A DNA stretch of 32,803 nt from Oscillospiraceae bacterium (GTDB lineage Bacteria; Bacillota; Clostridia; Oscillospirales; Oscillospiraceae). Position numbers and translations under genes: made by a program. Of this stretch, positions 1-12,644 are shown in pieces. Below the pieces are notes generated by a model. The model saw nothing but the letters and a program-made list of their open reading frames with translations, ran no database searches and was not told the origin of the DNA. The stretch is from the NCBI GenBank assembly GCA_017624715.1, contig JAGAMN010000019.1:1-32803 (forward strand). Direction: 5' to 3'. The first letter of the stretch is position 1. The number at the start of each line of letters is the position of its first letter.

Positions 1-54
1 TCGGCAGCCATTCGGACGAGCAACACCCCTTCGGTGGCCTCTCTTGCCCCTATG

Positions 55-87
55 GGGCAATTCACCTCCTGCTCGCCCCTACAATTT
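55..87. repeat. Partial intergenic repeat arm (CGCCCCTACAA end)
   Basis: The end CGCCCCTACAA at 74-84 is the reverse complement of the TTGTAGGGGCG end seen at 12671 and resembles the ends of the palindrome at 18695-18769. It looks like one arm of a dispersed element. Nothing else recognisable lies in 1-96 apart from a small GCCCC/GGGGC hairpin at about 48-58. Confidence 0.35.
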
Positions 88-96
88 CTAAATATG

Positions 97-172: not shown

Positions 173-179
173 GAAAAAA

Positions 180-214
180 GAAAGGATACCTTTTGGTATC
201 CTTTCTTTTTTCTA
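180..214 (+). terminator. Rho-independent terminator of tRNA-His
   Basis: A perfect 10-bp stem AAAGGATACC/GGTATCCTTT with a TTTT loop is followed by a T-rich run, starting about 8 bases after the tRNA CCA. It ends the tRNA-His transcript. Confidence 0.85.
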
Positions 215-216
215 TT

Positions 217-349
217 TGGGGCGGTGATGGGACTCGAATCATCTAAATGCAACAGTCCGGTGGACTGTTGCTCGCCGGGTTAGGGGCCCGGCGACACCTT
301 AGTTGCCGTTCATTCCCGAACGGCAACGCAAACGAGTCCCATCACCCAC
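217..349. repeat. Four-armed palindromic element with tRNA-His-derived ends
   Basis: Bases 223-236 (GGTGATGGGACTCG) pair perfectly with 333-346. Inside lie three hairpins: 249-271 (10 bp), 273-293 (7 bp) and 302-327 (10 bp). The right arm (333-349) is identical over 17 bases to the 3' end of the tRNA-His gene (152-168). The left arm on the - strand also ends in CCCCA like the tRNA. The whole could fold into a cloverleaf as DNA or RNA. No protein-coding capacity is seen. Origin by insertion at the tRNA 3' end is an inference. Confidence 0.7.
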
Positions 350-499
350 AAGTTGGATACCCAACAAGCCCGCTGTAGACACTTTTTTAGCCGGGGGGAG
401 TCCATAGGTCGCAGTTTGCGAGTGATGAAACTCGAAGAATTAGATTTACCCTCATCCGTCTGCCCTGGCGGGCAGCCACCTTCCCCCAGGGGAAGGCTT
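350..499. repeat. Intergenic stretch with a GGGGAAGG-type repeat
   Basis: No gene is seen. Bases 449-497 hold a dispersed repeat (CTCATCCG...CCACCTTCCCCCAGGGGAAGGC) found in inverted orientation at 31170-31218 and in fragments at 26386-26547. Its CCTTCCCC/GGGGAAGG hairpin followed by CTTTTATT could act as a + strand terminator. Confidence 0.55.
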
Positions 500-1294
500 T
501 TATTCCCCAAAAATTTCTTTTCCCAACCCGTAATCCGTAAACATCAAATCGATATCCACATTGCCCTGGATTCCGGGCACGCTACCCTGGTCGGTATACT
601 GCCAAACATCCACCCGGCAGAAAAACTCCGAGGTCAAATTGTACTTTGCCAGCCACCAGGGATATGCCCCCAGCTCCTCCAGCTCCAGCCGGAATTGCCC
701 CTGGCTGGTGTTGAAATACACCATGCCCCGGTATCCGGCCCTTTCCACCGCCTGGCAAAATGCATGGGTCGCATCCGTCAAGGTCCTGCGATCCACCGCG
801 CCGGTCCGGGCTTCCTCGCTGATATATTCCCAATCATAAACCAAGGGCAGATCCAGCTTGAATCCCTCCAAAATATCCAGAGCAAACTCTGCCTCTTCCT
901 GAGCCTCCTCCGCAGTCACCGCCTGGGAGAAGAAGTAAGCGCCCACCTTCAAGCCGGCAGTCCTTGCGCCCACCAAATTCATTCTTGCAAAATCATCCTC
1001 ATGGAGCGTGCCGCTTTCGTAGCCCCGATATCCCAGCCGTATGAACGCAAATTCCACGCCGCTGGCGGCAACCATTTGCCAATCAATGGCCTGCTGATGG
1101 GAGGAAACATCGATTCCCAACACCGTATTTCCTTCCGTACACTGCAGGTAATCTCCCACCAGCACAAAATCCTCCGGCGAATACGGACTCTCCGGAATTG
1201 GTGACACTTGAGGCTGCACATTCCCCTGAGGAATCTGAGCACCGCAGCCCACCAAAACCAATGCCAACGCCAAAAATACTGCCAACCGCTTCAT
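500..1294 (-). CDS. GH25 family lysozyme lipoprotein
   Basis: A predicted surface-anchored muramidase that would cleave the MurNAc-GlcNAc bond of peptidoglycan. The start at 1294 is chosen because it follows GGAGGG at good spacing and gives a clean lipoprotein signal, MKRLAVFLALALVLVGC, with the lipidated Cys at residue 17. A longer frame upstream has no signal. The mature part begins with a Pro-rich linker. GH25 hallmarks follow: GIDVSSHQ with Asp62, and the strand LPLVYDWEY with Asp154 and Glu156, which fit the catalytic D-x-E. The tail VDIDLMF matches the usual GH25 end. At 264 aa it is one catalytic domain without extra repeats. It is transcribed alone from a promoter divergent to the next gene. 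A housekeeping or remodelling role is inferred. Confidence 0.9.
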   Translation of the reverse strand: MKRLAVFLALALVLVGCGAQIPQGNVQPQVSPIPESPYSPEDFVLVGDYLQCTEGNTVLGIDVSSHQQAIDWQMVAASGVEFAFIRLGYRGYESGTLHEDDFARMNLVGARTAGLKVGAYFFSQAVTAEEAQEEAEFALDILEGFKLDLPLVYDWEYISEEARTGAVDRRTLTDATHAFCQAVERAGYRGMVYFNTSQGQFRLELEELGAYPWWLAKYNLTSEFFCRVDVWQYTDQGSVPGIQGNVDIDLMFTDYGLGKEIFGE

Positions 1295-1322
1295 ATTGCG
1301 CCCTCCTTCCGCCTTTTTCGTC

Positions 1323-1351
1323 AGTATATCACAATTCCGCGCTCTTGCCAA
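1323..1351 (-). promoter_or_regulatory. Promoter of the GH25 lysozyme gene
   Basis: On the - strand, TTGGCA (1351-1346) and TATACT (1328-1323) are separated by 17 bases, about 30 bases upstream of the lysozyme start. It sits back to back with the + promoter at 1354-1381. Confidence 0.7.
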
Positions 1352-1353
1352 GG

Positions 1354-1381
1354 TTGAAAAGCGGCTTAATTGTGGTATACT
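1354..1381 (+). promoter_or_regulatory. Promoter of the DUF2156-GNAT pair
   Basis: TTGAAA (1354-1359) and TATACT (1376-1381) with a 16-base spacer lie just upstream of the start codon at 1403. Confidence 0.7.
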
Positions 1382-1402
1382 AAATCCAAGGAAGTGATTA
1401 TT

Positions 1403-2314
1403 ATGATCAAATTTGAACGCTTAACCCCCGATGACCGGGAAAAATACCAAACACTTTTGTTTGCCGACGGCGCGCGAGGCTGTGAATATTCCTTCGCCAA
1501 CATCAACATATGGGGTCGCCAGCGGATCGCATTTTTGCATGACCGGGCCATTCTCTTTTCCCAGTACGACCGGGTCAGCCTGTACCCCTTTCCTGTAGGC
1601 ACAGCCGATGTCAAGCCCGCCCTGGACGCCATCATCCATGATGCCGCCAAACGGGGCATTCCCTGCCGTCTGTCCTCCATGAACCAGGCCGATTGTCAGC
1701 TGATTGAATCCCTGTACCCCGGCAGATTCCAGTTCCACACCGACCGGGATCACTTTGACTATGTCTACGCCATCGATGACCTGGCAGAGCTCACCGGCAA
1801 GCGTTACCAGAGCAAGCGGAATTTTGCCAACCGGTTTGCATCCAACTACCCGGACTGCCAGTGCCTGCCCATTGACAAATCCACTGTTTCCGCAGTACAA
1901 ACTATGCTGGAAACATGGTTTGCCGACCGATTAAAAATCGCCCCGGACAGCGATTTTGTCCTGGAAAAGGTAGCCCTGAACCGGGCCTTTGCCCATCTGC
2001 AGGAATTGGGATTGGAAGGTTTGGCTGTGATGGTGGACGGAAAGTGCATCGCCATGACCATGGGTAGCCGGCTGTCAGCAGACACCTTTGACATCCATTT
2101 TGAGAAAGCTCTGGATGGCTACGACGGCGCTTACGCCTTCATCAACCGCAGCTTTGCCCGGCATCTCCGGGAAACCTATCCCGATCTGCGGTATCTGAAC
2201 CGTGAAGACGACATGGGTATCCCCGGCCTGCGCAAGGCCAAAATGTCCTATCACCCCCACCATATGGTGGAAAAATATTGGGCACGGCTCTGGGAGGACG
2301 ATTATGACAATTGA
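1403..2314 (+). CDS. DUF2156 (lysyl-PG synthetase C-terminal-like) protein
   Basis: A 303-aa protein resembling the DUF2156/LPG synthetase C-terminal family, which has two GNAT-like folds and in MprF moves aminoacyl groups from tRNA to phosphatidylglycerol. This copy has no membrane segments, so it is a free-standing cytosolic member whose substrate is unknown. The family-like parts are the start FERLTPDD, the centre GKRYQSKRNFANRF, and the C-terminal FINRSFARHL...LNREDDMGIPGLRKAKMSY. The start follows AAGGAAGTGA and excludes the longer upstream frame. Its stop lies 11 bases inside the next gene, also an acetyltransferase-like protein, so the two are probably translated together. The function of the pair is not established. 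Confidence 0.8.
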   Translation: MIKFERLTPDDREKYQTLLFADGARGCEYSFANINIWGRQRIAFLHDRAILFSQYDRVSLYPFPVGTADVKPALDAIIHDAAKRGIPCRLSSMNQADCQLIESLYPGRFQFHTDRDHFDYVYAIDDLAELTGKRYQSKRNFANRFASNYPDCQCLPIDKSTVSAVQTMLETWFADRLKIAPDSDFVLEKVALNRAFAHLQELGLEGLAVMVDGKCIAMTMGSRLSADTFDIHFEKALDGYDGAYAFINRSFARHLRETYPDLRYLNREDDMGIPGLRKAKMSYHPHHMVEKYWARLWEDDYDN

Positions 2315-3050
2315 TTATCCCATGCAAACCACCGGCCTGCGGCAGCTTTGGAAAGAAGCCTTCGGCGACAGCGATGCCTTTCTGGATGTCTTTTTCAGCC
2401 ACGGCTACAGCCCCCGGCGTTGCCGGTGCATCACAGACGACGGACAGGTTGCCGCCGCCCTATACTGGTTTGATTGCAGCTTTGCGGGCAAAAAAATCGC
2501 CTATCTGTACGCCGTGGCTACCGCTGTTTCCCACCGGGGAAAGGGCTTGTGCCGCAAATTGATGGCAGATACCCATGCACTTTTGGCAAATCAGGGCTAT
2601 GCCGGGGCGATTTTAGTCCCAGGAGAGGGTAGCCTTTTTGATTTCTATGCCGCTATGGGCTATGAAACCATATCCTGTGCAGACACGATCCGCTGCATAG
2701 CCGGCGAAAAGCCCGTCCCCGTCGCCAAGCTCTCCCCCGAAACCTACGCCGCCCGTCGGTGGCAGCTCTTGCCGGAAAAGGGTGTGCTCCAGGAGGGCGA
2801 AAATCTGACCTTTTTGGCAGAAATCTGCACGCTTTACGGTGGCGACGGCTGGATCATGGCCGCATCCACCGAAGAAAAAGCCCTCACCGCTATGGAGTTC
2901 TTAGGCGATTGCGCTGCCATCCCCGGCATTCTCACCGCCCTGGGAAAGCAGGAAGGCACATTCCGCACCCCTGGCAGCGCCCCCTTTGCCATGTACCTTC
3001 CCTTTGACGGTGGCGCAGCCCCCACCTACTTCGGCCTGGCCTTTGACTAA
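2304..3050 (+). CDS. GNAT family N-acetyltransferase
   Basis: A 248-aa GNAT-type acyltransferase. The acetyl-CoA-binding motif A is seen as VATAVSHRGKGLCRKLM around residues 71-87, with R78-G79-K80-G81 as the pyrophosphate-binding loop. GSLFDFYAAMGYE downstream is the usual motif B-like segment. The start at 2304 is supported by GGGAGG eight bases upstream and by the coupling to the preceding gene (ATG inside its last codons). The C-terminal 90 residues look like a second, degenerate GNAT-like or specificity domain. The substrate cannot be read from the sequence. It shares an operon with the DUF2156 protein. Confidence 0.85.
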   Translation: MTIDYPMQTTGLRQLWKEAFGDSDAFLDVFFSHGYSPRRCRCITDDGQVAAALYWFDCSFAGKKIAYLYAVATAVSHRGKGLCRKLMADTHALLANQGYAGAILVPGEGSLFDFYAAMGYETISCADTIRCIAGEKPVPVAKLSPETYAARRWQLLPEKGVLQEGENLTFLAEICTLYGGDGWIMAASTEEKALTAMEFLGDCAAIPGILTALGKQEGTFRTPGSAPFAMYLPFDGGAAPTYFGLAFD

Positions 3051-3055
3051 ATAAT

Positions 3056-3090
3056 TGTCATTGCGAGGCCGCAGGCCGTGGCAATCCCCC
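3056..3090. repeat. Solo arm of the TCATTGCGAG repeat
   Basis: TGTCATTGCGAG followed by a GGCCGC/GCGGCC-like hairpin and GTGGCAATC. This is one arm of the element present in full at 11426, 13382, 21002 and elsewhere. The second arm is missing here. Confidence 0.75.
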
Positions 3091-3142
3091 GATGGAAACC
3101 TTGGCTCCCTCTCTGAGGGAGTTTATAATCAAAAACTTCATC

Positions 3143-3229
3143 TGTCATCCTGAGCGTAGCGAAGGATCCGTTCTTCTCTATAAAAGAATACGGATTCTTC
3201 GACTCCCCTTCGGGTCGCTCAGAATGACA
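3143..3229. repeat. TGTCATCCTGAGCG palindromic repeat
   Basis: Begins TGTCATCCTGAGCGTAGCGAAGGATCC and ends GGATTCTTCGACTCC...CTCAGAATGACA. The two arms are imperfectly complementary over the whole length. A second copy lies at 31222-31348. Repeats of this general sequence are widely dispersed between genes in many bacteria. Confidence 0.8.
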
Positions 3230-3254
3230 CAGGATTGTTATATCACCACTGCCA

Positions 3255-3283
3255 TTGACACCCCGGTTTCCGGGTGCTATAAT
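3255..3283 (+). promoter_or_regulatory. Perfect-consensus sigma-A promoter
   Basis: TTGACA (3255-3260), a 17-base spacer and TATAAT (3278-3283) match the consensus at all 12 positions. The spacer contains a CCCGG/CCGGG palindrome. It lies 40 bases upstream of the zinc-ribbon gene and predicts strong constitutive transcription. Confidence 0.85.
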
Positions 3284-3322
3284 GATCCTGTTATCAAAAC
3301 AAATTGAAAGTGAGGTAACCCC

Positions 3323-4168
3323 ATGGGCAAATTCTGTTCCAATTGCGGTACCGCTCTGGATGAAGGCGCAGCCTTCTGCCACAACTGCGGTAACCAGATT
3401 CCCCAGGCTGCTCCCGCAACCCCCCAGTTCATCCCTGCTGAGGAAGTCACCCCCGCACCCCAGTTCGTTCCTGCAGAGCAGGCCGCTCCCGCACCTCAGT
3501 TCATTCCTGCAGAGCAGGCTCAGCCCCAGTTTGTCCCTGCTGACCAGGCCGCTCCCCAGTTCGTGCCTGCCGCATCCGTGGCTCCTGCCGCTCCTGCCAA
3601 GAAGAAGCCCAGCAAGAAGGCTCTGATCATCGGTGGTGTTGTTGCCGCCGTTGCAGTGGTTGCCATCATTCTGATCATCGTCCTCGGCGGCAATGGCGGT
3701 TCTGCCAACTCTCCCCAGGGCGCTTTGGACAACTATGTTGCTCTGATGAACGGCGACACCAGCAAGCTGGACGCCTTGGCTCCCGACGAGTACTGGGAAG
3801 CTATGGCAGAAGAGGAAGGCTGCTCCAAGAAAGAGCTTCTTGCCGAAGGCAGAGAAGCCATGGCTGAAAATGTCGACGAACTAAAAGAAGAGTACGGCCG
3901 CAACTACAAGGTCACCGGCAAGATCATGGCCGAAGACGAAGTTGACGACGACACCCTGGAGAAGATCGCCGAGGCCCTGTCCGAGTACGGCATCAAGGAA
4001 AGCTCCATCAAGGCCGCCAAGGACCTGACCATTAAGCTGACTATTAAGGGTTCCGACGGTGAAGATGAAAACACCACCAGCCTCTCCGCCATCCAGATCG
4101 GCTCTACCTGGTATTTGATCCAGTATCGCGAATACAACGGCAATGTTTACGTAGGCTTTATCTTCTAA
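3323..4168 (+). CDS. Zinc-ribbon membrane protein with PQFxPA repeats
   Basis: A 281-aa protein in four parts. Residues 5-23 form an N-terminal zinc ribbon with two CxxC knuckles (Cys5, 8, 19, 22). Residues 34-83 carry five PQF(I/V)PA repeats. After a Lys-rich stretch, about residues 100-121 form one strongly hydrophobic membrane segment. The remainder is an acidic domain of about 155 residues, probably outside the membrane, starting SPQGALDNYVALMNGD, like small lipoprotein or DUF4878-type folds. Orientation by the positive-inside rule puts the zinc ribbon in the cytosol. It has its own perfect promoter and terminator, so it is a monocistronic and probably abundant product. Its function is unknown. 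Confidence 0.8.
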   Translation: MGKFCSNCGTALDEGAAFCHNCGNQIPQAAPATPQFIPAEEVTPAPQFVPAEQAAPAPQFIPAEQAQPQFVPADQAAPQFVPAASVAPAAPAKKKPSKKALIIGGVVAAVAVVAIILIIVLGGNGGSANSPQGALDNYVALMNGDTSKLDALAPDEYWEAMAEEEGCSKKELLAEGREAMAENVDELKEEYGRNYKVTGKIMAEDEVDDDTLEKIAEALSEYGIKESSIKAAKDLTIKLTIKGSDGEDENTTSLSAIQIGSTWYLIQYREYNGNVYVGFIF

Positions 4169-4219: not shown

Positions 4220-4302
4220 TGTCATTGCGAGGCGGCTCCGCCGCCGTGGCAATCCCCCGGATATAAGAACGGATTCTTCGACTCCGCTACGCTCAGAATG
4301 AC
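4220..4302. repeat. Chimeric repeat: TCATTGCGAG arm joined to CTCAGAATGACA arm
   Basis: The left half (4220-4258) is an arm of the TGTCATTGCGAG family with a GGCGG/CCGCC hairpin. The right half (GGATTCTTCGACTCC...CTCAGAATGACA) is an arm of the TGTCATCCTGAGCG family. The arms are not each other's usual partner, so this is a recombinant between two element families. Confidence 0.7.
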
Positions 4303-4322
4303 ACCCCAGATTTTCAATTTCC

Positions 4323-4895
4323 TCAATCCCGATGAAGCTCAATGCCCACCACGCCATACTTTTCCTGCTCTTCCGCAGAATAATAGACTTCCATATCGGA
4401 CGGGTGCGCCGTGTCAATATCTTCTGCTGTGTATCCGCATTGCAAAAGCGGCAACACTTCATACAGCTGCACAAAACTCTCAAAGCGGTGTAGCTTCACC
4501 ACCCTTTTGGTGAGCGTTTCTCCGGTAGTGGTGTTGGTAAACACAATCCGATCACCCGGCTTGATTTTCTGCCGCTTTTCGTCAAACAGCCGCAGCTCAA
4601 TGGTCTTTTCGCCGCTCTTGATCTTCTCAAAGGGCGCGCTCTGCAGCTTCATATGATGCTTGTCTTTGCTTTTGCAGGACCTTTTTACGAAACTAATCAC
4701 AGCTATAATCACAGCCAAGAAAATAATCCCAATAAGCACAAACCAATCAAAATCCAACTCCGTTATGTCCACCGAAAAAACTGAGCTTACTCCTAAGCAC
4801 ACAAGAAACCCAATCGCAAATAGGATCATCGCAAGTACGATTTCCATAACGCCTTCAAGTAACGCCTCGCGTATTTTCTGTTTTTTCTTCTTCAT
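4323..4895 (-). CDS. Two-TM protein with C-terminal ASCH domain
   Basis: A 190-aa protein. The start at 4895 follows GAAAGGG. An earlier in-frame stretch runs through junction repeats and is not protein-like. After a Lys-rich start come two hydrophobic segments (about residues 18-38 and 51-72), a basic linker, then a cytosolic ASCH-like domain beginning MKLQSAPFEKIKSGEKTIELRL and containing IKPGDRIVFTN. ASCH domains belong to the PUA-like superfamily and are thought to bind RNA. The usual stand-alone ASCH protein starts at exactly the MKLQ methionine, so the membrane part looks like an added module. It is the last gene of the AT-rich block downstream of rlmD. Function is unknown; RNA binding at the membrane is an inference. 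Confidence 0.75.
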   Translation of the reverse strand: MKKKKQKIREALLEGVMEIVLAMILFAIGFLVCLGVSSVFSVDITELDFDWFVLIGIIFLAVIIAVISFVKRSCKSKDKHHMKLQSAPFEKIKSGEKTIELRLFDEKRQKIKPGDRIVFTNTTTGETLTKRVVKLHRFESFVQLYEVLPLLQCGYTAEDIDTAHPSDMEVYYSAEEQEKYGVVGIELHRD

Positions 4896-4930
4896 TTTAA
4901 GCCCTTTCCAGACACAACTGCTTTCCACTC

Positions 4931-4991
4931 GGTTCAAGACTCCAAAAGGTATATTTTTGTGCAAAAAATAGGGGTGGAAACTCCAAAAGGT
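4931..4991. repeat. Unit junction repeat, copy B (paired CTCCAAAAGG motifs)
   Basis: Two related motifs, GGTTCAAGACTCCAAAAGGT (4931-4950) and GGGGTGGAAACTCCAAAAGG (4971-4990), are 20 bases apart, between the ASCH and 92-aa genes. The same pair in the same order and with similar spacing occurs at 5312-5372. On the - strand the sequence just after the pair (around 4930-4907) reads as codons RVES, a possible worn copy of the rlmD tail. Confidence 0.6.
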
Positions 4992-4995
4992 ATAT

Positions 4996-5274
4996 TTATT
5001 TACCCTTTTTGAAGTAGCCTTTACCCTTAAAAGTATCGTACCATAAGGTATAAATCGCGCCGCAGTTTTTGCATTTAATTCTATACCACAATCCGTCTTG
5101 AGGCCAATTTTTGATAGTGTCGGCGGGGTTATTTCCTCCGGCATATTCGTAATTCTCACTTACCAATAATCTCTTGAGTTCTTCTAATATGGCAAAAAAT
5201 TCTTCGGTAGTTTTAAGCGACTTTACAGTTTCAATGGTTTTACACCTGTCGCATGTTTTTTTGAATGGTATCAT
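4996..5274 (-). CDS. Small protein with two CxxC pairs
   Basis: A 92-aa protein of unknown function. CDRC at residues 8-11 and CKNC in the C-terminal third could form a split zinc-binding site. Between them lies a charged helical segment (EEFFAILEELKRLL). The tail GKGYFKKGK is basic. The start at 5274 follows AAGGAGA. The reading frame of a second rlmD-like 3' end (see 5287-5312) runs into this gene and ends in TTATGA, so its stop overlaps this ATG. That would couple this gene to an rlmD-like message in the donor arrangement. The size and position in an accessory array are like those of immunity or regulatory cargo, but no family was recognised. Confidence 0.65.
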   Translation of the reverse strand: MIPFKKTCDRCKTIETVKSLKTTEEFFAILEELKRLLVSENYEYAGGNNPADTIKNWPQDGLWYRIKCKNCGAIYTLWYDTFKGKGYFKKGK

Positions 5275-5286
5275 AATTCTCTCCTT

Positions 5287-5312
5287 GTGAGACAAACGAC
5301 ACTCTCGACGTG
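5287..5312 (-). other. Second copy of the rlmD 3' end (tail footprint)
   Basis: Read on the - strand, this stretch encodes HVESVVCL followed by T. The true rlmD end at 8028-7993 encodes HVESVVCLSRK. The two nucleotide copies differ only in synonymous Ser (AGT against TCG) and Leu (CTC against TTG) codons across these eight codons. The frame continues TRREL and stops at a TGA overlapping the next ATG. This is what an inserted unit that brings its own version of the target gene's end would leave. Confidence 0.7.
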
Positions 5313-5372
5313 GGTCAAGACTCCAAAAGGTCTCAAAATCGGGCAAAAACGGGGGTGGAAACTCCAAAAAGT
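5312..5372. repeat. Unit junction repeat, copy A (paired CTCCAAAAGG motifs)
   Basis: GGGTCAAGACTCCAAAAGGT (5312-5331) and GGTGGAAACTCCAAAAAGT (5354-5372) flank a spacer of about 22 bases. The organisation matches copy B at 4931-4991. It lies directly next to the rlmD tail footprint. Confidence 0.65.
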
Positions 5373-5389
5373 CCCACTTTTATAGGTGG

Positions 5390-5409
5390 AAATCATCATT
5401 TGTCCCTAT
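5390..5409. repeat. 20-bp direct repeat, left copy
   Basis: AAATCATCATTTGTCCCTAT occurs here and, identical, at 7880-7899. The two copies bound the four-gene AT-rich unit between the 92-aa gene and rlmD. Confidence 0.8.
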
Positions 5410-5412
5410 TTT

Positions 5413-6204
5413 TCACAACCTTGATTTTAATTCGTGAATGGTTTTTACAATCACAATACCGAAATCTACAAAAAAGTTTTTTTGAGCATCGGTGTAACTT
5501 CTTCTTTCAGCAACTGCTTCTTCCGATGAATGCCTAAAACATTGCATTTGCTTTCTGTAATTTTTTATAGTTTCATCGCTTAAATACTCAAAGGCAAACG
5601 AAGCATAGTCGAGTGTAATGAACTTGCCATTTTCTTTGAGCATATTCTCTATAAGATTTGCGATTTCTTGCAGTTTTTCGTCAAGAGCCATTTCTTGAAA
5701 ACTTGCATTGCGAGTAGATATTTTTTTGAATTTTTCTTCGATTGACTCTCCAAGATCAAGAGTAGTTCCGTTAGTCTTAAATGCAAGTTGTGCAACAATT
5801 TGTCTACGCACACGATATGGTATTGTGCCATTTACATTTAGTCCCAAAGCAAAAGCTTTATTTCGAATCTCGGTGTACGTAAATTCCGTTGGCTCATTCG
5901 GAGGTCTTCTCAAAACATGAGGAAATTCTTCTATGTAGTACCCGTTGTGATGAAAGAAAAAAGTGAGCAAATAAAACCAACACGTTTGTTCTTTTGAAAA
6001 AGTTTGTATTTCGGGCTGACATAATGACTTGAATTTTTCAATAGCCTCTTCAATATCAATTATTAAAAATTCAAGTTCTTCATCCTCCTCTTCGCCAAAG
6101 AAGTCATTATATTTTTTGTTTGAGGCTAAAATGTACGAACGAAACCTATAATGATACTCGTCATCTGAAATGTTTTTTAAATAGTATTCTTTTAAGTCTA
6201 TCAT
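5413..6204 (-). CDS. Hypothetical protein, 263 aa
   Basis: Not recognised. It is a soluble, charged, mostly helical protein with no signal peptide or membrane segment. Features seen are an acidic patch (EEEDEELEFLIIDIEEAIEKF) near residues 38-60, an aromatic stretch CWFYLLTFFFHHNGYYIEEFPHVLRRPP around 75-102, a basic segment YRVRRQIVAQLAF near 130, and a helical C-terminal half. Base composition is much more AT-rich than the rlmD operon, which suggests transfer. The ribosome site before the start is weak. It ends 4 bases from a 20-bp direct repeat, at the end of the unit next to rlmD. Placement in an accessory array fits cargo such as defence or stress genes, but nothing in the sequence proves that. 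Confidence 0.6.
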   Translation of the reverse strand: MIDLKEYYLKNISDDEYHYRFRSYILASNKKYNDFFGEEEDEELEFLIIDIEEAIEKFKSLCQPEIQTFSKEQTCWFYLLTFFFHHNGYYIEEFPHVLRRPPNEPTEFTYTEIRNKAFALGLNVNGTIPYRVRRQIVAQLAFKTNGTTLDLGESIEEKFKKISTRNASFQEMALDEKLQEIANLIENMLKENGKFITLDYASFAFEYLSDETIKNYRKQMQCFRHSSEEAVAERRSYTDAQKNFFVDFGIVIVKTIHELKSRL

Positions 6205-6236
6205 TGTTGCCTCTTAATGAATTTGTGGAAATTATA

Positions 6237-6677
6237 TTACTTAAATTCAAGGTTGATAATATCCATCGCAACGTCAAGGTTAGTCAGTACAACCACACAA
6301 CCGTCGCGTGCAATTCTCCAATTATTAGAGTTCTCACCCTTTGCAAAATATTCAATGTTCAATTCTGCAAAATTGGTTGCCTGTTCCTCGGTAGCGAATG
6401 TAATAAATGTGCAAGACTTGGAATGGTCGCCGTTTTCAATCAAATCATACTGCTTAACGATTTCAACGGTAAAGTCGCCGCCCATAAACGCAATTTCACT
6501 GTTTGTAAGCGAGGTTGCACGTTCGCATTCTTCCTCTGTGATGTAGCACATACCTTCGGTCAAGCCCTTTTCCTTGAGCTTTTCGATACTCTTATCCATA
6601 TCGAATTTTCCGGCACAGCCAACGAGAAGCATAGCGAATACTGCCAATACGGCTACAAGTGATACGATTTTTTTCAT
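6237..6677 (-). CDS. Small lipoprotein, 146 aa
   Basis: A predicted membrane-anchored lipoprotein. The signal MKKIVSLVAVLAVFAMLLVGC has the lipobox LVGC with Cys21. The start follows AAGGAG. The mature part is a small alpha/beta domain with FITFATEEQATNFAELNIEYFAK and a WRIARDGCVVVLTN strand pair. The same pattern of (Y/F)ITF...EEQA...W(R/L)...G occurs in the next gene upstream (6711-7127), so the two are probably distant paralogues. Function is unknown. It is AT-rich like the rest of the block and follows the other two lipoprotein genes on the same strand. Confidence 0.75.
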   Translation of the reverse strand: MKKIVSLVAVLAVFAMLLVGCAGKFDMDKSIEKLKEKGLTEGMCYITEEECERATSLTNSEIAFMGGDFTVEIVKQYDLIENGDHSKSCTFITFATEEQATNFAELNIEYFAKGENSNNWRIARDGCVVVLTNLDVAMDIINLEFK

Positions 6678-6710
6678 AGTGTTTTTTCTCCTTTTATTTG
6701 TTTTTGCTTT

Positions 6711-7127
6711 TTATTTAATAAGCTCGTTGAATGGCTTTATTAACTTGGAATTATAATAACTGTATTCAATTTTTCCGTAAGTTCCGGTTTTGAGCCATCG
6801 ACTTTCTCCGCTTACAGTAGCATACAACCATACTGCCAAATTGTATTTATCTGTTTCAGCAGCTTCTTCGGCTTGTTCATCTGTAAAGCAAGTTGTGAAG
6901 TAGATGTAATCGCTGTCAGAATCTTCGGTTAAACTCGCTTTTATGTAGCAAAGCTGTGAGCCTTCTGCCTGCGTCTTATGCTCTCCGTGTGTCACGAAAT
7001 AGCCTGCATCCTCGTATGCCTTTATAATATCCTCGCAGGATATTTCTTTCGGCTCGGCGCTATTACCGCAAGCCGTAAACAAAAAGCAGAGCGAGAGCAG
7101 TAAAAGTATTGATATTATCTTTTTCAT
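6711..7127 (-). CDS. Small lipoprotein, 138 aa
   Basis: The signal MKKIISILLLLSLCFLFTAC has lipobox FTAC at Cys20, followed by GNSAE. The mature domain contains DIIKAYEDAGYFVTHGEHK, YIYFTTCFTDEQAEEAAE and SRWLKTGTYGKIEYSYY, similar in layout to the 146-aa lipoprotein downstream. Only 2 bases separate its ATG from the stop of the preceding lipoprotein gene, which implies coupled translation. No catalytic motif is seen; a surface binding or sensing role is a guess. Confidence 0.75.
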   Translation of the reverse strand: MKKIISILLLLSLCFLFTACGNSAEPKEISCEDIIKAYEDAGYFVTHGEHKTQAEGSQLCYIKASLTEDSDSDYIYFTTCFTDEQAEEAAETDKYNLAVWLYATVSGESRWLKTGTYGKIEYSYYNSKLIKPFNELIK

Positions 7128-7129
7128 AG

Positions 7130-7681
7130 TTATTCTTCGTTTAATACATAGAAGCCACTAAGGGGGGCTTCTGATTTGTAATCGAGTGTAATTAAGGTGT
7201 TATACGAAAAATCCTTCGTTCCGTATTCAAGTGTCTTGGTTTCATAGTCATAAATTGAAATGATGCAAAAAATTAGTTTACCGTCCTCGTCAAGAGTGCC
7301 ATCGGAATAAACAAATCTGTAAGCGCTGTCAACGTTAAATTCAGAAAGCTCGGTTGCAGGCTCAAAGTAATATGTAGTCAATGATCCTGCCAAAGTGCCT
7401 TTTTGTTCTCCGCGTGTTCCAAAATACTTGAAATTCTGCGATTTAAGATATTCAAACACCTCGGAGACATAGGCTTCGCGCTCCTTGCTTGTGAAGCTAA
7501 CGTAAATATCCTCATCGTTATGTTTTATGTAATCCTTTGTGATTGTGGGCAAATCACCTACAAGGCATTGTGTAAGTTTTTCTTCTGAAAACCATTTGTT
7601 TTCTTTGTGCGCACTACCGCACGATGCAAGACAGCATAAGCATAAAACTGCTGTCAAGCATAAAGATAATAACTTTTTCAT
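7130..7681 (-). CDS. Small lipoprotein, 183 aa
   Basis: First gene of the three-lipoprotein group. The signal MKKLLSLCLTAVLCLCCLASC has lipobox LASC at Cys21, then GSAHKENKW. The start follows TAGGAGGT. The mature part includes YVSFTSKEREAYVSEVFEYLKSQNFKYFGTRGEQ, where the helix-turn before GTRGEQKGTLAG resembles the HGEHKTQAEG turn of the next lipoprotein, suggesting all three share one fold. Function was not recognised. The gene lies about 310 bases downstream of rlmD on the same strand, so it may use a weak local promoter or read-through. Confidence 0.75.
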   Translation of the reverse strand: MKKLLSLCLTAVLCLCCLASCGSAHKENKWFSEEKLTQCLVGDLPTITKDYIKHNDEDIYVSFTSKEREAYVSEVFEYLKSQNFKYFGTRGEQKGTLAGSLTTYYFEPATELSEFNVDSAYRFVYSDGTLDEDGKLIFCIISIYDYETKTLEYGTKDFSYNTLITLDYKSEAPLSGFYVLNEE

Positions 7682-7992
7682 TTGATTTACCTCCTAAACA
7701 CTAACAACAACTTATTTTACGGAATCCTATTAATTGGTTCATGGAAACATATCAACTGTATAAATACTTTGTGGCACTTGTATTTTTAAGAAAATTAGGT
7801 GATTCTCGTTTGCAAATTGCCGTTTTTATACGATATGTTATACCAAACAGGTGTAAATTGAAGTTTCGAGCTTCGCTCAAAATCATCATTTGTCCCTATG
7901 TGATTTCGAGGTGTTTTTGATTTCAAACACATCTTTTTGCTCAAAAATCTCTTAAAACGCCGAAAAAAGTGCCATTTTAGGGTCAAAATCGC
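7682..7992. other. AT-rich gap between lipoprotein genes and rlmD
   Basis: No gene is supported. It contains the right copy of the 20-bp direct repeat and several A/T runs. On the - strand a possible weak promoter TTGATA-17-TAATAG lies close to the first lipoprotein gene. No clear terminator follows rlmD. Confidence 0.4.
7880..7899. repeat. 20-bp direct repeat, right copy
   Basis: Identical to 5390-5409 (AAATCATCATTTGTCCCTAT); the match stops at both ends. It lies 94 bases downstream of the rlmD stop codon. Confidence 0.8.
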
Positions 7993-9342
7993 TTATTTTC
8001 GTGACAAACAAACGACCGACTCGACGTGTGCACACCTGGGGAACAGATCCGCTGCCATAGCATTTTTGACCCGATATCCCCGCTGCTTCAGCAGAGCCAC
8101 ATCCCGAGCCAGGGTGGCCGGGTCGCAGGAAACATACACGATCCGCCGGGGAGCCATCCGGGCCAGCGCCTCGATGGTGTCGGCATTCAAGCCCTTCCGG
8201 GGCGGGTCTACCACCGCCACATCGGCTTTGATTCCCTGCTGCTCCAGGCTAAGCGCCGCCTGACCCGCGTCACCGCAGAAAAACTCCGCATTTTCGATGC
8301 CGTTGCGCACCGCATTGTCCTTGGCATCTTCCACCGCCTGGGGCACAACCTCCACGCCGATGACCTTGCCGGCGGCCTTTGCCATGCACAGGGTAATCGT
8401 GCCCACACCGCAATAAAGGTCCAAAACCGTGTCATCTTTCGTGATCTCCGCCTGAGAAATCGCCGCCTCATACAGCCGCTGAGCCTGATGGTGATTCACC
8501 TGATAGAAAGACCGGGGCGACAGCCGAAAATTCAGGCCGCACATGGTGTCCTCAATATACCCCGGGCCATAGAGGACGATCTCCTCATCCCCCAAAATGG
8601 CATTGCCCTTTTTGGTATTTACCGACAGCACCAGGGTCGTAAAGCCCGGCACGGCCTTCAGTTTCTCAATCAACTGCTCCGGCTTGGGGATGGCCCGGCC
8701 ATTCACCGCCAGGCACACCAAAATCTGCCCGCTCACCGCCCCCCGACGGACATAGATATGCCGCAAAAGGCCGGTGTGGGCGGCTTCATCGTAGACGCTC
8801 ACCCGAGTTTGGTTTACATAATCTACAACAATGTCCTTGACCCGATCCGTTTCCCGGGGCAAAATCAGACAGCGGTCATTTTCCACCACCTGATGGGTTC
8901 CCGCCTTAAAAAAACCGGCAAAGGCCTTATTTTTCTTTGCCGCCACCGGATACTGGGCCTTGTTCCGATATTCCCGGCAGGTCGGTGCCCCCAAAATCGG
9001 CACCTCCGTCAGCTTTTCGCCACCCAAACGGTTCAGGCAATCCCGCACTCGCTGGGCTTTCAGCCGGCTCTCCTCCTCGTAATCCATGTGCCAAAAGTCG
9101 CAGCCGCCGCAAAGCTTGGCCACCGGGCAAGCCCGGTTCATCCGATGTTCGGATTTCTCCAGAATCTCCACGATCTTGCCGGAGGCCCAGGTTTTTCCCA
9201 CCTTTTCAATGCGAACGCGGCAGCGCTCCCCGGCGATGGCATTGGGCACGAATACCGTCCACCCCTCAATTTTGGCAATTCCCTGCCCCTCGGCAGTGTA
9301 ATCGGAAATCACTGCCTCATATATTTGATTTTTCTGAAGCAT
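7993..9342 (-). CDS. rlmD: 23S rRNA (uracil-5-)-methyltransferase, RlmD/RlmCD type
   Basis: A SAM-dependent enzyme that makes 5-methyluridine in 23S rRNA. An N-terminal TRAM domain covers about residues 3-60. Cys72, 78 and 81 with Cys158 are placed to hold the 4Fe-4S cluster of this family. The SAM-binding motif is VLDLYCGVGTITLCMA, followed by VVDPPRKGL. The catalytic cysteine is Cys406 in YVSCDPATLARD. Length (449 aa) is normal and the end HVESVVCLSRK is complete. It is the last housekeeping gene of a four-gene operon; the preceding stop codon overlaps its ribosome site. Which uracil it modifies cannot be told (Gram-positive homologues can do two sites). Its 3' end appears to be the attachment point for the accessory array downstream. 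Confidence 0.92.
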   Translation of the reverse strand: MLQKNQIYEAVISDYTAEGQGIAKIEGWTVFVPNAIAGERCRVRIEKVGKTWASGKIVEILEKSEHRMNRACPVAKLCGGCDFWHMDYEEESRLKAQRVRDCLNRLGGEKLTEVPILGAPTCREYRNKAQYPVAAKKNKAFAGFFKAGTHQVVENDRCLILPRETDRVKDIVVDYVNQTRVSVYDEAAHTGLLRHIYVRRGAVSGQILVCLAVNGRAIPKPEQLIEKLKAVPGFTTLVLSVNTKKGNAILGDEEIVLYGPGYIEDTMCGLNFRLSPRSFYQVNHHQAQRLYEAAISQAEITKDDTVLDLYCGVGTITLCMAKAAGKVIGVEVVPQAVEDAKDNAVRNGIENAEFFCGDAGQAALSLEQQGIKADVAVVDPPRKGLNADTIEALARMAPRRIVYVSCDPATLARDVALLKQRGYRVKNAMAADLFPRCAHVESVVCLSRK

Positions 9343-9358
9343 TGGCAGTTTCCTCCCC

Positions 9359-9826
9359 TTACAGAACGGTTTCCATTCCGTATTTTTGGGGCAACAACCC
9401 CATTTTTTCGTAAAACTTCAGGGCGCTTTTATTTTCCGCCCAGACATTTAAGGTCACATTGTACGCACCCAGGCCCTTAGCGTAATCCAGCACTGCTCCG
9501 TACAACGCCTTGCCGATGCCGCCACCACGGCAAGTTTCATCCACGCACAGATCGTCGATGTATACCGTGAGTCTATCCTGTAAAACCGGGTCGCCCTGGG
9601 TATTTTGGAGAATGCAGAAGGCATAGCCCACCACATTTTCCCCATCCTCCGCCACCAAAATGGGGCGATTTTTGTCCTGCAGCAGCGCAGCCAGGGCCTG
9701 TTCGTCGTATTTTTGGGCATCGGCCCGGAAAATATCCGGCCGCCCGTCATAATGCACCCTGCCCACCTGCTTCAGCAGCCGGATCATGGCAGGGATATCT
9801 TCCATTTTCGCAAAACGAATCTGCAT
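9359..9826 (-). CDS. GNAT family N-acetyltransferase
   Basis: A 155-aa single-domain acetyltransferase. Motif A is visible as IDDLCVDETCRGGGIGKALYGAVLDYA, with the acetyl-CoA loop RGGGIG around residues 95-100. The C-terminal NVTLNVWAENKSALKFYEKMGL is the standard motif B. The start follows AAGGAG, which overlaps the stop region of thiN (10 bases between the genes), so it is part of the same operon as thiN and rlmD. The substrate is unknown; sequences like this are often annotated as RimI-like or small-molecule acetyltransferases. Confidence 0.88.
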   Translation of the reverse strand: MQIRFAKMEDIPAMIRLLKQVGRVHYDGRPDIFRADAQKYDEQALAALLQDKNRPILVAEDGENVVGYAFCILQNTQGDPVLQDRLTVYIDDLCVDETCRGGGIGKALYGAVLDYAKGLGAYNVTLNVWAENKSALKFYEKMGLLPQKYGMETVL

Positions 9827-9836
9827 TTTTTACTCC

Positions 9837-10463
9837 TTACCGAATCGGAAATCCGTTTATCCGATCCCACAACACCAGCAAACTGCCGTCCTTTACCTCG
9901 ATTTCGGCTGTTTTTCCAACAAATGCGTTGCTCAGCCCTAAAGGATGCCCGGCGGTCAATACGCCGTCATTCAGTTCGTATTTGAATCCTTGAAGGGTCA
10001 CACCGGAAGCATCGCTTCCCATGCAAAACACCGAGAGTGTGCCCGTAGCCGTTCCGGGAAACACCAGCTTGCCGTTCTTGACCACGGTCACCGCCGTGTC
10101 TTTTCCCAGCAAATAACCCACCGCGCCCCGGTCCGCCAAAAACTGCAGAGTCTGAAAATTGGCCACCGTGTGGTCAAGCCGCTTTCCTGCCAGCGCGCCG
10201 TAGAAAATGAATTCCTCGCAGCCTTCTGCAAGGCCTCGACGCACCGCCAGCATGGAGTCGGAATCGTCTTTCTCCACCGGGAAAACCTCCGCCCCCTGAG
10301 GCGTATAGCCCAGGGAATCAAAATCTCCCAAAATCACATCCGGCTGAACGCCCAGTTTTTTTGTATGCTGAAGTCCCCCATCGGCGGCAATCACCAGCGC
10401 ACCGTCAGGAACGGTAACCGGTGCATCCAGCTCTCCGGCACAAAAAATTACACATCTTTTCAT
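9837..10463 (-). CDS. thiN: Thiamine pyrophosphokinase
   Basis: Transfers pyrophosphate from ATP to thiamine to give thiamine diphosphate. Family motifs are all present: AADGG (about 26-30), GDFDS (46-50), EKDDSDS (64-70) and RLDH (95-98). The C-terminal half has the beta-rich thiamine-binding region. At 208 aa it has the usual length. Its ATG overlaps the stop codon of the lipid kinase gene by 4 bases (ATGA), so translation is coupled. No TPP riboswitch sequence was noticed in front of the operon. Confidence 0.93.
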   Translation of the reverse strand: MKRCVIFCAGELDAPVTVPDGALVIAADGGLQHTKKLGVQPDVILGDFDSLGYTPQGAEVFPVEKDDSDSMLAVRRGLAEGCEEFIFYGALAGKRLDHTVANFQTLQFLADRGAVGYLLGKDTAVTVVKNGKLVFPGTATGTLSVFCMGSDASGVTLQGFKYELNDGVLTAGHPLGLSNAFVGKTAEIEVKDGSLLVLWDRINGFPIR

Positions 10464-11386
10464 ACTTCCACCGGCTCTTTCACCGCAAAACTAAGCCCCT
10501 TGGGGTAGAAGAAACGAACCTTTTCCTTGGCAACAGTCATCTCCACCTTCTGGGCAAGTCGCAGCTCGCCGTCCAGGTTGATGGGGGTGGGCTTGTCGCA
10601 AAGGATGGTAACCTTATCGGTCCTAAAATGCCGCACCAGCTTGGGCAGTTCCTTATAGCGGCCGGACTTATACTTGCCGATGACCGCCGGCACCTGCAGC
10701 CGGGAAACCTTCTTCACCAGCAGCACATCCAGCACCCCATCGGTGGGGTCTGCCGTAGGCACAGGGTTGAAGCCGCCGCCATAAAATCTGCCGTTGCACA
10801 CGCAGATCATGGTCTGCTCGGCATCGATGGTCTCGCCGTTGATCTGCACCACATAATGCTCAGAAATTCCCCGGATCACATTGACCACCGTGGACACCAC
10901 ATAGGCCCGGAAACCGCTGAGCAAGGGTAGGCGCTTGTAGTGGGCAACATCCGTGCCGATCCGGGCATCCAGACCCACGGAGCAGATGTTTAAGGAGATA
11001 TCGTCATTGCATTTGATCAGATCAAAGGTAGCTTCTTCCGCATCCAGCAGCCGCTCCAGGTCAAAAAACGCCTTGGGATCGTCAAAGAGCTTCACAAAAT
11101 CGTTGCCGCTGCCGCCGGACAGCACGGACACCGCCACATTGTCGAATCCTGCCGCACCTGCCACCACCTCGTTCAGCGTACCGTCACCACCGCAGGCGTA
11201 GACCCGGTAATCCTCACCGGTCAGTGCTGCTTCCCGGGTCAGCCGGGTGCACTCACCGGGAGCACCGGATACCTGGATTTCGTAATCCAACCCCTGTTCG
11301 CCGCAGGCCTTTTCGATGATTTCCGTATACATTTTCGTCCGGTCTTTGCTGCCTGCCGCCGGGTTAATGATGAATAAATGCTTCAT
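10460..11386 (-). CDS. Diacylglycerol kinase family lipid kinase
   Basis: A soluble lipid kinase of the DgkB/YegS type, phosphorylating diacylglycerol or a related lipid at the membrane surface. It has the nucleotide-binding NPAAGS at residues 8-13 and the signature GGDGT at 66-70, followed by SGGSGNDFVK. The second domain contains CNGRFYGGGFNPVPTADPTDGVLDVLL and the closing INLDGE. 308 aa is normal. It is first in the operon with thiN, GNAT and rlmD. The ribosome site is AAAGGTGG. Lipid specificity cannot be decided from the sequence. Confidence 0.9.
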   Translation of the reverse strand: MKHLFIINPAAGSKDRTKMYTEIIEKACGEQGLDYEIQVSGAPGECTRLTREAALTGEDYRVYACGGDGTLNEVVAGAAGFDNVAVSVLSGGSGNDFVKLFDDPKAFFDLERLLDAEEATFDLIKCNDDISLNICSVGLDARIGTDVAHYKRLPLLSGFRAYVVSTVVNVIRGISEHYVVQINGETIDAEQTMICVCNGRFYGGGFNPVPTADPTDGVLDVLLVKKVSRLQVPAVIGKYKSGRYKELPKLVRHFRTDKVTILCDKPTPINLDGELRLAQKVEMTVAKEKVRFFYPKGLSFAVKEPVEV

Positions 11387-11425
11387 AAATTGCCACCTTT
11401 CGTGGATTGTTGGCTCCCTTTACTG

Positions 11426-11511
11426 TGTCATTGCGAGCCAGTGGGCACACTGGCGTGGCAATCTCCTTCGATCCGAGGGATTGCCACGTCGCTTTGCTCC
11501 TTGCAATGACA
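11426..11511. repeat. TCATTGCGAG palindromic element (full)
   Basis: Starts TGTCATTGCGAGCCAGTG and ends with the complement GCAATGACA. Internal GTGGCAATC and GATTGCCAC also pair, and each arm has its own small hairpin (CCAGTGGGCACACTGG on the left). It sits between the RNA methyltransferase and the lipid kinase genes. Confidence 0.85.
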
Positions 11512-11519
11512 GAAAAACG

Positions 11520-12644
11520 TTACTTTCTACCGCCCAAATACATATAGTAATCGCACTTGATCATGCCGTTGTAGAGCTTACGCCTCTTGTCCGCCCGGCG
11601 GCCAAAATAATGCTCAAATTCCGGCTCGGAGGTAATGATATACTTCTTCCAGCCGTCCGCAAATTTCAAATGCCGCCCCAGCGCACCATAAAGCCGCTGG
11701 GCGCTGTGCTGCTCCATCATCCGCTGACCGTAGGGAGGATTGCAGATGAGAATGCCGCTGTCGGTGGGCAGGCTCATTTTAGTAGCATCGCCATCCTTGA
11801 AGGTGATGCAATCCGCCACACCGGCCTTTTTCGCATTGGCCATGGCCAGGCTGACGCATTTGGGGTCGTTGTCTGAGCCCAAAATCCGGTAGTTGCCCTT
11901 AAATTCCTTGTCCATCGCCTCGCTCCGGGCAGCGCGCCATATGGCATCATCGGACCAGGCAAAATGCTCCGCGCTGTACCGGCGACCCAGACCCGGTGCC
12001 CGGTTTTTGGCGATCAGCGCTGCCTCAATGGGAATGGTGCCGCTGCCGCAGAAGGGATCCCAAACGAACTCCCTGCCCCGATACTTGGTCAGCATCACCA
12101 TGGCCGCCGCCAAGGTCTCCCGCAGGGGCGCATCGTTGCCTACAGCCCGGTAACCCCGCTTGTGCAGACCTACGCCGGAAGTGTCCAGGTACAGCTGCAC
12201 CCGGTCATTCATGATAGAAAACTGGAGCTGATATTTCGCGCCATCCTCCGGCAGCCAGCTAAGGCCATACTTTTCGCCCAACCGCTTGCAGGCGGCCTTC
12301 TTTACGATAGCCTGGCAATCGGGAACGCTCATTAGCTGGCTGTTCAGGCAGTGACCCTTCACGGGAAACGCACCGTTTTTTGGGATAAAATCCTCCAAAT
12401 TGGCGTTATACACGCCTTGAAACAGCTGTTCAAAGGTCTTTGCCTCAAAATCCGCCAGCACCAGCAAAATCCGCTCGCCGGTCCGCAGATTCACATTGGC
12501 CCGGGCCATGGCGCTTTCATCGCCGGAAAACAGCACCCGGCCGTTCTCCACCCGGACATTTTCCAAATCCAGCCGCCGCAGCTCATCGCCGGCGATACCC
12601 TCCAGGCCGAACAAAGTCGGCACAGCAAATTCAAATTTCGACAT
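11520..12644 (-). CDS. THUMP-domain class I RNA methyltransferase
   Basis: A SAM-dependent guanine-N2 type RNA methyltransferase of the UPF0020/YpsC family. The N-terminal THUMP-type region covers about residues 1-155. The methylase domain has DPFCGSGTIPIEAAL at 196-210 (SAM site) and the catalytic ILICNPPYGQRM with NPPY at 302-305. The start at 12644 follows GGAGG and gives the family-like MSKFEFAVPTLFGLEG. 374 aa matches the single-methylase Gram-positive members rather than the two-domain E. coli RlmL. It is probably an rRNA methylase; the exact site is inferred only by homology. It stands alone between two repeat elements. Confidence 0.88.
   Translation of the reverse strand: MSKFEFAVPTLFGLEGIAGDELRRLDLENVRVENGRVLFSGDESAMARANVNLRTGERILLVLADFEAKTFEQLFQGVYNANLEDFIPKNGAFPVKGHCLNSQLMSVPDCQAIVKKAACKRLGEKYGLSWLPEDGAKYQLQFSIMNDRVQLYLDTSGVGLHKRGYRAVGNDAPLRETLAAAMVMLTKYRGREFVWDPFCGSGTIPIEAALIAKNRAPGLGRRYSAEHFAWSDDAIWRAARSEAMDKEFKGNYRILGSDNDPKCVSLAMANAKKAGVADCITFKDGDATKMSLPTDSGILICNPPYGQRMMEQHSAQRLYGALGRHLKFADGWKKYIITSEPEFEHYFGRRADKRRKLYNGMIKCDYYMYLGGRK

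Follow-up and report, generated by a model that had tools for sequence, protein, structure and literature searches.

Candidate mobile gene cassettes stacked serially at the 3′ end of rlmD in gut-type Clostridia

The window analyzed here is a stretch of 32,803 nt from an Oscillospiraceae bacterium (contig JAGAMN010000019.1), and every feature described below lies on its reverse strand. The target gene rlmD (7993..9342; TIGR00479 rumA, 3e-122), whose 3′ end is the presumed insertion site, terminates in tail 1 (8005..8030; tail score 31.4), which is in frame and encodes HVESVVCLSRK followed by the stop codon. As proposed in the original prediction, an AT-rich block of six ORFs on the same strand follows rlmD, and the GC content per 1-kb window was 35–40% in 5001–8000 compared with 52–58% in 1–4000 and 8001–12000. 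A second tail (tail 2, 5287..5312; tail score 43.7) is located 2716 bp from tail 1. The rlmD tail is written with the codons CAC GTC GAG TCG GTC GTT TGT TTG and tail 2 with CAC GTC GAG AGT GTC GTT TGT CTC; both specify the peptide HVESVVCL, and the codon changes are confined to Ser and Leu, in agreement with the synonymous second rlmD tail that had been reported. When a 23-nt pattern spanning both tails (≤2 mismatches) was searched for, two matches were obtained in the window and none in 100 shuffles. In the bacterium's own genome, a similar pattern (≤3 mismatches) matched only tails 1 and 2, each mismatch-free; the backwards control pattern gave one match.

Tails 2 and 3 are adjoined on the rlmD side by a conserved arm that the original prediction had overlooked; a related repeat is located another 41 bp upstream. 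For unit 1, the right arm consists of a first direct repeat (5352..5372) and a second direct repeat (ACCTTTTGGAGTCTTGA, 5315..5339; arm score 43.4), which adjoins tail 2, and that of unit 2 consists of a first (4971..4991) and a second (4934..4958; arm score 37.9) direct repeat. Tail 3 (4908..4933), the weak third trace of the original prediction, is decayed (RVES...; score −6.6), but it was taken as a real unit boundary because an exact copy of ACCTTTTGGAGTCTTGA stands ahead of it, within 4958–4934.

Unit 1 (5314..8030; 2716 bp) runs tail-to-tail and contains four same-strand ORFs behind a leader without an annotated gene (7682..8004), which by eye resembles the unit leaders in locus L128, where the cargo differs, and in L174, at the tRNA-Ser site. 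The ORFs of 183 aa (7130..7681; no family), 138 aa (6711..7127) and 146 aa (6237..6677; no family above the cut-off for either) appeared lipoprotein-like by eye, and the ORF of 263 aa (5413..6204) matched no family. Unit 2 (4933..5314) is a 381-bp single-gene unit, in which an ORF of 92 aa (4996..5274) shows possible zinc-ribbon residues (match below the cut-off) and carries AAGGAG just 5′ of its ATG. The last gene of the array is an ASCH-domain ORF (4323..4895; PF04266, 4.1e-07). No match was returned by PADLOC for the six window proteins. The gene content downstream of rlmD varied across 19 congener stretches, and the same six genes in a fixed order, which would have refuted the original prediction, were not seen; of the window array genes tested (a comparison that left out the 92-aa and 146-aa ORFs), only the ASCH ORF recurred, its relatives lying in the rlmD islands of L041 and L047.

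An exact arm was found by scanning in 57 stretches, 52 of which were titled as Clostridia, Clostridiales or Oscillospiraceae MAGs. Five loci of other phyla were dropped before counting, together with L175 (the L154 junction), L180 (the L128 contig) and L149 (the L200 contig); L182 and L199 belong to one genome. Since the loci were picked via the exact arm, the sample is biased toward intact arms, and the genomes are fragmented. In the 52 retained loci, a tail scoring above 18 followed 51 of the 59 exact arms, a threshold passed by 1 of ∼1.02 million control positions (peak 19.6); such a tail was missing after eight arms, including that of the window's tail 3. The score still exceeded 18 in 49 of 58 cases when one locus at a time was left out. 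Arm-like matches elsewhere (five other records and three viral contigs) were followed by such a tail in 0 of 8 cases. The combined arm and tail score was 28.8–87.3 for the listed junctions, on some of which the matrix was trained, and peaked at −22 in the reverse-strand and reversed controls (1.02 Mb). A same-strand rlmD end lay upstream in 32 of the 52 loci. In the window's order, the arm and tail were present in 3 of 197 genomes, and in its genus the arm (≤2 mismatches) was present in 3 of 136, the window's own included both times, so the window represents an outlying carrier. The genus scan gave four matches and its backwards control two, and the real matches were accepted on context. A 93-nt blastn query of the junction found no match in phages or plasmids; of two scans of viral contigs, one gave three matches, none with a tail following, and the other gave none.

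The recognised rlmD-end tails were in frame in 30 of 30 cases. Insertion would therefore exchange the end of rlmD and leave the gene unbroken, and the distal tails appear to stay further out as unit boundaries. Among 92 distal tails, 75 distinct DNA versions were counted, 40 tails read exactly HVESVVCL, and the entropy at codon positions 1, 2 and 3 was 0.47, 0.29 and 1.14. The variation thus still falls mostly on third codon positions, which bears out the claim that the tail copies derive from rlmD ends.

The tails divided 41 loci into 83 units with a median of 747 bp, although the 41-bp "unit" of L199 is an artefact of two arm repeats and further units may be merged or partial. Unit ORFs accounted for 19342 residues on the rlmD strand versus 1122 on the opposite strand. 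ORFs shared at 75–100% identity connected 55 unit pairs across loci (42 of the 83 units, 27 loci); in one of these pairs, L162/L186, the shared ORF (58 aa) lies in a leader. RlmD identity between the paired loci was 27–64% in 41 of 42 measurable cases, a value that can understate host kinship since some loci may hold an rlmD paralogue. No common neighbour was seen in 31 of the 33 pairs in which both units have neighbours; in the other 22 pairs one side has no neighbour to compare. Of the 55 pairs, 22 share IVP-type proteins, which might be mobile in their own right. When their cluster was removed, 33 pairs remained (35 units, 23 loci), and a neighbour was shared in 1 of the 24 non-IVP pairs with neighbours on both sides. 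Single-gene units of ∼290–500 bp were common to different neighbourhoods at 78–100% protein identity. Unit 2 of the window, for which the boundaries were compared side by side, was found in five further arrays (L152, L156, L158, L184 and L190; 80–96% protein identity), and the congener L038 carries tandem one-gene units. L166 and L199 are 96.8% identical over a 1515-bp match that extends through the rlmD end and cassette 1 and breaks off inside the arm.

In one locus, L174, the gene in front of a unit is not rlmD but a tRNA-Ser, and the unit starts directly at its CCA end. G229 and G224 have a tRNA-Ser with an uninterrupted flank, but its anticodon is tga and that of L174 is cga, so they provide no proven empty site. 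The array of L184 lies behind an epimerase-like gene, for which a search for the exact empty site found none.

On these comparisons, a unit spans one rlmD tail to the next, with HVESVVCL or a close variant at its left end, often followed by a leader, and the conserved arm, usually a double repeat, at its right end. Units recur singly and with changed neighbours in loci of widely differing RlmD. The window block is probably made up of mobile gene cassettes that were inserted serially and site-specifically at the rlmD 3′ end and that each supplied a tail of their own. Serial insertion restoring the rlmD end, as originally predicted, is supported well outside the window by the same junctions in other Clostridia, by the in-frame tails and by the recurrence of units with different neighbours. 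Since like cassettes occur in other combinations behind rlmD of gut-type Clostridia, the data point to a gene-swapping system resembling that of integrons. A circular cassette would be joined, at its arm–tail junction, to the rlmD tail by a site-specific recombinase provided in trans, and rlmD would thereby act as attI does in an integron. Cargo with a ribosome-binding site right behind the tail, as in unit 2 of the window, would use the rlmD transcript for its expression. A wider reading, with slightly less than an even chance of being right, is that gut-type Clostridia possess a cassette-capture system distinct from integrons, with the rlmD end as a fixed platform, a replacement end and an arm on each cassette, a trans-acting recombinase of its own kind and mostly promoterless genes moved between bacteria while rlmD always stays intact.

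The same stacking could also have arisen as CIMEs, with ICEs or IMEs targeting rlmD inserted in turn and then deprived of integrase and transfer genes, so that the tails would be old att sites and no cassette would move today. Accretion of CIMEs with IMEs is described (PMC5704250), CTn5 was found relocated into rumA in a laboratory strain of C. difficile (PMC4320837), and the original prediction was right that the rumA/rlmD 3′ end is in print as a site of streptococcal conjugative elements: PMC4701971 gives rumA as the target of a serine integrase, with attR inside the integrase gene. L202 and L204 also have a large serine recombinase gene whose end falls within such a tail, and recombinase fragments occur in L051, L042 and G160. 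However, independent decay would not readily yield a common right arm on units of unrelated cargo, nor the small single-gene units shared between different neighbourhoods, and the arm was missing from the recombinase stretches checked, namely the rlmD-type stretches L053, L055, L056 and L129 (best score −8.6), and from the stretches L057–L062, where a descent from an ICE or IME sharing its ends would have placed it. We regard this origin as unlikely.

Homologous recombination alone, with tails and arms serving as short homology and uptake or transfer shuffling the downstream genes, is considerably less probable still. It would draw on the ∼90 bp conserved at junctions and on the leaders and arms, which differ around the same cargo in different loci; this mosaic indicates that homologous recombination also acts. 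A 41-bp length difference between L166 and L199 fits an exchange between the two arm repeats. Against this stand the L174 unit, which joins tRNA-Ser with little shared sequence, and the precision of the junctions despite the divergence of RlmD. A regulatory or accidental origin of the tails, e.g., a terminator or leader hairpin resembling an rlmD end, is barely credible: a mirror repeat of ≥11 bp follows 12 of 152 tails, but none follows the other 140, the codon pattern of the distal tails still resembles that of coding DNA, and the chance expectation in the window, judged from the shuffles, is nil. The hairpin was rejected as a general recombination substrate on the same count. The cassette reading given above for the window block is the one compared with known systems below.

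Integron cassette arrays, including the integrase-less CALINs, consist of small cassettes, mostly of one or two genes, in one orientation. The arrays described here are alike in orientation and size, in their unrelated cargo, conserved junctions and varied combinations, and the comparison of loci suggests independent cassette movement of the integron type; they differ in that no integrase was seen at the platform and that the site is the rlmD coding end, renewed at each insertion. SCC and pseudo-SCC elements lie in tandem at the 3′ end of rlmH, a gene for a 23S rRNA methyltransferase, and restore that end. Tandem stacking, a restored methyltransferase gene end and recombinase-less members are common to both, whereas the gene here is rlmD rather than rlmH, the hosts and the junction are others and the units are far smaller; for a ccr-type enzyme, no serine-recombinase profile match was found in the window array. 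The dif (pdif) modules of Acinetobacter plasmids likewise place gene modules between recombination sites and do not encode the recombinase that moves them, but the units here are chromosomal and at one gene. The ICEs, IMEs and prophages at rumA (rlmD), such as ICE_Spy2096_rumA and phi-SgaBSJ27_rum, share the target and the 3′-end swap, and in the rumA ICEs the tail lies inside the integrase gene as in L202 and L204 (PMC4701971). However, the phage records seen are 71–111 kb long compared with a unit median of 747 bp, and the units here show no recombinase or transfer genes and terminate in an arm that the element stretches checked do not have. CIMEs formed by accretion resemble the present units in being recombinase-less, with att-like ends, and stacked at a gene end; they are described products of ICE or IME decay, whereas the units here have a right arm in common and single genes recur among them.

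Two site types were tried and rejected as candidates. The attC motifs RYYYAAC and GTTRRRY each occurred in 2 of 58 junctions, compared with ∼7 expected in shuffles. In a crude comparison with one dif, that of B. subtilis, the consensus junction matched 11 of 28 positions (shuffled mean 11.9).

The original prediction noted no recombinase in the block, so that it would act in trans or have been lost, and the window units indeed contain no serine integrase, transfer or mobilisation genes; none were noticed in other units. It had also suggested a search of related genomes for a recombinase beside the tail: a gene ending in the tail is present in L202 and L204, and none of the units showed a recombinase when the unit ORFs were read and the serine-recombinase profile was run on the rlmD-locus ORFs. 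Among the 2840 ORFs of the rlmD loci, this profile had matches in L202, L204, L051 and L042 only; the sole match of a Tn916-like tyrosine integrase query was to itself, in L036. No IntI was noticed when the unit ORFs were read. Recombinases of the L204 type were missing (E ≤ 1e-40) from 37 of 49 cassette-bearing genomes. This result and the lack of the arm in the rlmD-type recombinase stretches weigh against the cassette reading. The enzyme that would move the cassettes is about equally probably a serine recombinase targeting rumA/rlmD or one of another kind.

Cassette capture is best known from integrons and dif modules. If this reading is true, the present arrays would be a counterpart in uncultured Clostridia that has a junction of its own and whose platform leaves a housekeeping gene functional. 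It would also explain the spread of short accessory genes, including those for restriction-modification, IVP, membrane and unknown proteins. In the open-licence literature, no description of such cassettes was found in the titles and abstract openings among the matches listed. The arm–tail junction offers a search handle for collecting cassettes from metagenomes. Tails on other contigs of cassette genomes (eight places, G160, G170, G059, G364 and five loci), when opened, proved to be either rlmD ends or arrays in a stretch that lacks rlmD. The exception, L302, shows a tail but no rlmD and no arm. In G077, an exact arm was found together with the window's 23-nt tail, but with another gene.

The rlmD gene (7993-9342, minus strand) is the target gene, and the array lies on its 3' side. 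The AT-rich block behind rlmD comprised six ORFs on the rlmD strand, and a second copy of the last rlmD codons (here termed tail; tails are numbered 1-3 from rlmD outward) was confirmed at 5312-5287, encoding the same HVESVVCL as rlmD with changed Ser and Leu codons. The tail pattern gave two matches in the window versus none in 100 shuffles, and a chance origin of the copy is ruled out; no further copy was found in the window's own genome under the pattern used, for which a backwards control matched once. Among the distal tails of all loci compared, third codon positions varied most, a pattern that would be expected if each had formerly been the end of an rlmD gene. Tails 2 and 3 are each preceded by a conserved right end (the arm), which contains a pair of direct repeats spaced at 41 bp; ACCTTTTGGAGTCTTGA is the second of the pair. 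With the tails as boundaries, the array divides into unit 1 of 2716 bp with its four ORFs, unit 2 of 381 bp with a single 92-aa ORF, and a last stretch that holds the ASCH ORF. The cargo of unit 1 is bracketed by a perfect 20-bp direct repeat (7880-7899, in the leader, and 5390-5409, just before the arm).

The six genes were not a fixed set among the congeners compared: 19 stretches 3' of rlmD from other genomes of the genus carried differing genes, and the rlmD end itself was variable among them. L038 held two units of ∼340 bp with related ORFs and tails at each boundary, followed by a degenerate third tail; in L041, a relative of the ASCH ORF lay in frame directly behind rlmD; and in G077 (locus L128), the arm and 23-nt tail were the same as those of the window and the leader was similar, with a different gene between them. 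RlmD carried a 90-aa extension in at least four congeners (L039, L042, L044 and L045). Since a relative of this extension, read from L022, matched streptococcal rum-site phages as well as plasmid pAPRE01, and in G064 it lay in frame behind a serine recombinase, known rlmD-site elements also occur in this genus. The extension, grafted by rlmD-site elements, was also seen at L053:8001-8234, L055:6420 and 9001, and L129:4501-4731, and pAPRE01 has two copies 2.6 kb apart; for two versions, no Pfam family scored above the cut-off (one gave HTH_33 at 0.043). Among 28 congener contigs listed by hand, eight ended ≤700 bp downstream of rlmD and two ≤700 bp upstream (10 and six, respectively, within 2 kb), as if the assembly had been broken there by strain mixtures.

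The arrays spread beyond the genus. When species genomes were scanned for the exact arm, 57 stretches were obtained. For 52 of them the record title reads Clostridia, Clostridiales or Oscillospiraceae, and 36 of the 52 records name a rectum, colon or cecum source, from deer, sheep, goat, cattle, yak and similar animals. Two of the 52 were duplicates and were dropped; with the window and L128 added, the analysis covered 52 oriented loci. Exact arms met a tail in 51 of 59 cases, and an rlmD end lay upstream in 32 of the 52 loci; of the other 20, 15 met a contig edge within ∼2.3 kb of the arm, L160 was not extended, and L174, L184, L202 and L204 held >4 kb without rlmD. With L172 and L207 set aside (no tail over threshold at the rlmD end), the recognised rlmD-end tails were in frame in 30 of 30 loci, despite differing codons before them (DLFPRTG, DMFPQTK, DLFPRCA). 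Contig G170:C11 carries a pair of rlmD-like methyltransferase genes, and a tail forms the end of each (near 11814 and 20095). The L213 array (7112-7865) lay behind an aldose-epimerase-like gene, not rlmD, and no tail or arm was seen by eye in the matching gap of the relatives compared. In the L308 array, the uncommon peptide HVESVVGL is encoded by both the rlmD tail and the distal tail (oriented positions 2324 and 2792), as though the host end had been displaced to the distal position.

Single units recurred between loci. From 41 of the loci, 83 tail-to-tail units (median 747 bp) were delimited; nearly all ORFs lay on the rlmD strand, and the chief departure from this was a cytosine methylase in L174. 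For 42 of the 83, a unit at a different locus matched with ≥75% identity over ≥55 residues, giving 55 pairs in 27 loci; where both units had neighbours (33 pairs), 31 shared none. The largest cluster, of 23S_rRNA_IVP-like proteins (n = 14; one tested member was PF05635), accounted for 22 of the 55 pairs, and the 33 pairs outside it (35 units, 23 loci) gave the same picture, a neighbour being shared in one of 24 comparable pairs. Over alignments 248-479 residues long, RlmD identity was 27-64% in 41 of the 42 measurable pairs and 98% in one; some of these figures may be too low because of paralogues. The unit 2 protein of the window was 96% identical to those of L152 and L158 units, whose RlmD proteins showed 39 and 48% identity to the window RlmD. 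Other cargo included a helicase, a restriction-modification pair of HpaII type and numerous unknown proteins; in L225 (2680-4765), a single unit carries a cytosine methylase together with an HpaII restriction endonuclease. Behind 12 of 152 tails, a mirror image of the tail comes next, with stems of 14-18 bp that track the tail's codon changes; places where this was noted include oriented L167:1500, L167:2280, L187:5025, L194:5758, L196:691 and L197:1610, and the rlmD end in L040 and L047. Several such units hold an IVP-type protein (23S_rRNA_IVP, PF05635), which parallels rRNA intervening sequences.

One unit in L202 and one in L204 are preceded by a tail inside which a large serine recombinase gene ends. 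The encoded enzyme has Resolvase, Recombinase and zinc-ribbon domains, and PMC4701971 describes such an arrangement for streptococcal rumA ICEs. The overlap points to use of the tail by serine recombinases. It is no proof that these enzymes move the cassettes, because no arm was found in the rlmD-type element stretches examined and L204-type enzymes were missing from 37 of 49 carrier genomes. The L174 unit began directly behind the GCCA that ends tRNA-Ser(cga); the right arm of this unit ended in GACCCA, with AATGAAACTG after it. Two genomes from the genus of L174 have tRNA-Ser(tga) genes in which AATGAAACTG or AGTGAAACTG comes immediately after the GCCA. Because the anticodon differs, these genes show such a flank in its uninterrupted form and not an orthologous empty site for L174; the flank itself resembles the tail, and therefore use of a secondary site is plausible.

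The structure of the arrays, their spread and the recurrence of single units are established by the comparison of loci. The window array probably functions in the manner of an integron cassette array: rlmD would be the platform, on which a recombinase supplied in trans would act by site-specific recombination, and the cargo would be expressed from the rlmD transcript. The arm-tail junctions are unlike the attC sites of integrons and unlike dif, the junction site of dif modules. No intact rlmD-site ICE or IME was found in the window. Accretion of CIMEs, which are decayed and recombinase-less, comes closest in mechanism, but the shared arm is not readily explained by CIME decay. Beside the array, at 3057-3240 and 4222-4310, dispersed palindromic repeats (TGCGAGGC...GCAATCCCCC and TCATTCTGAGCG-like) were noted by eye.
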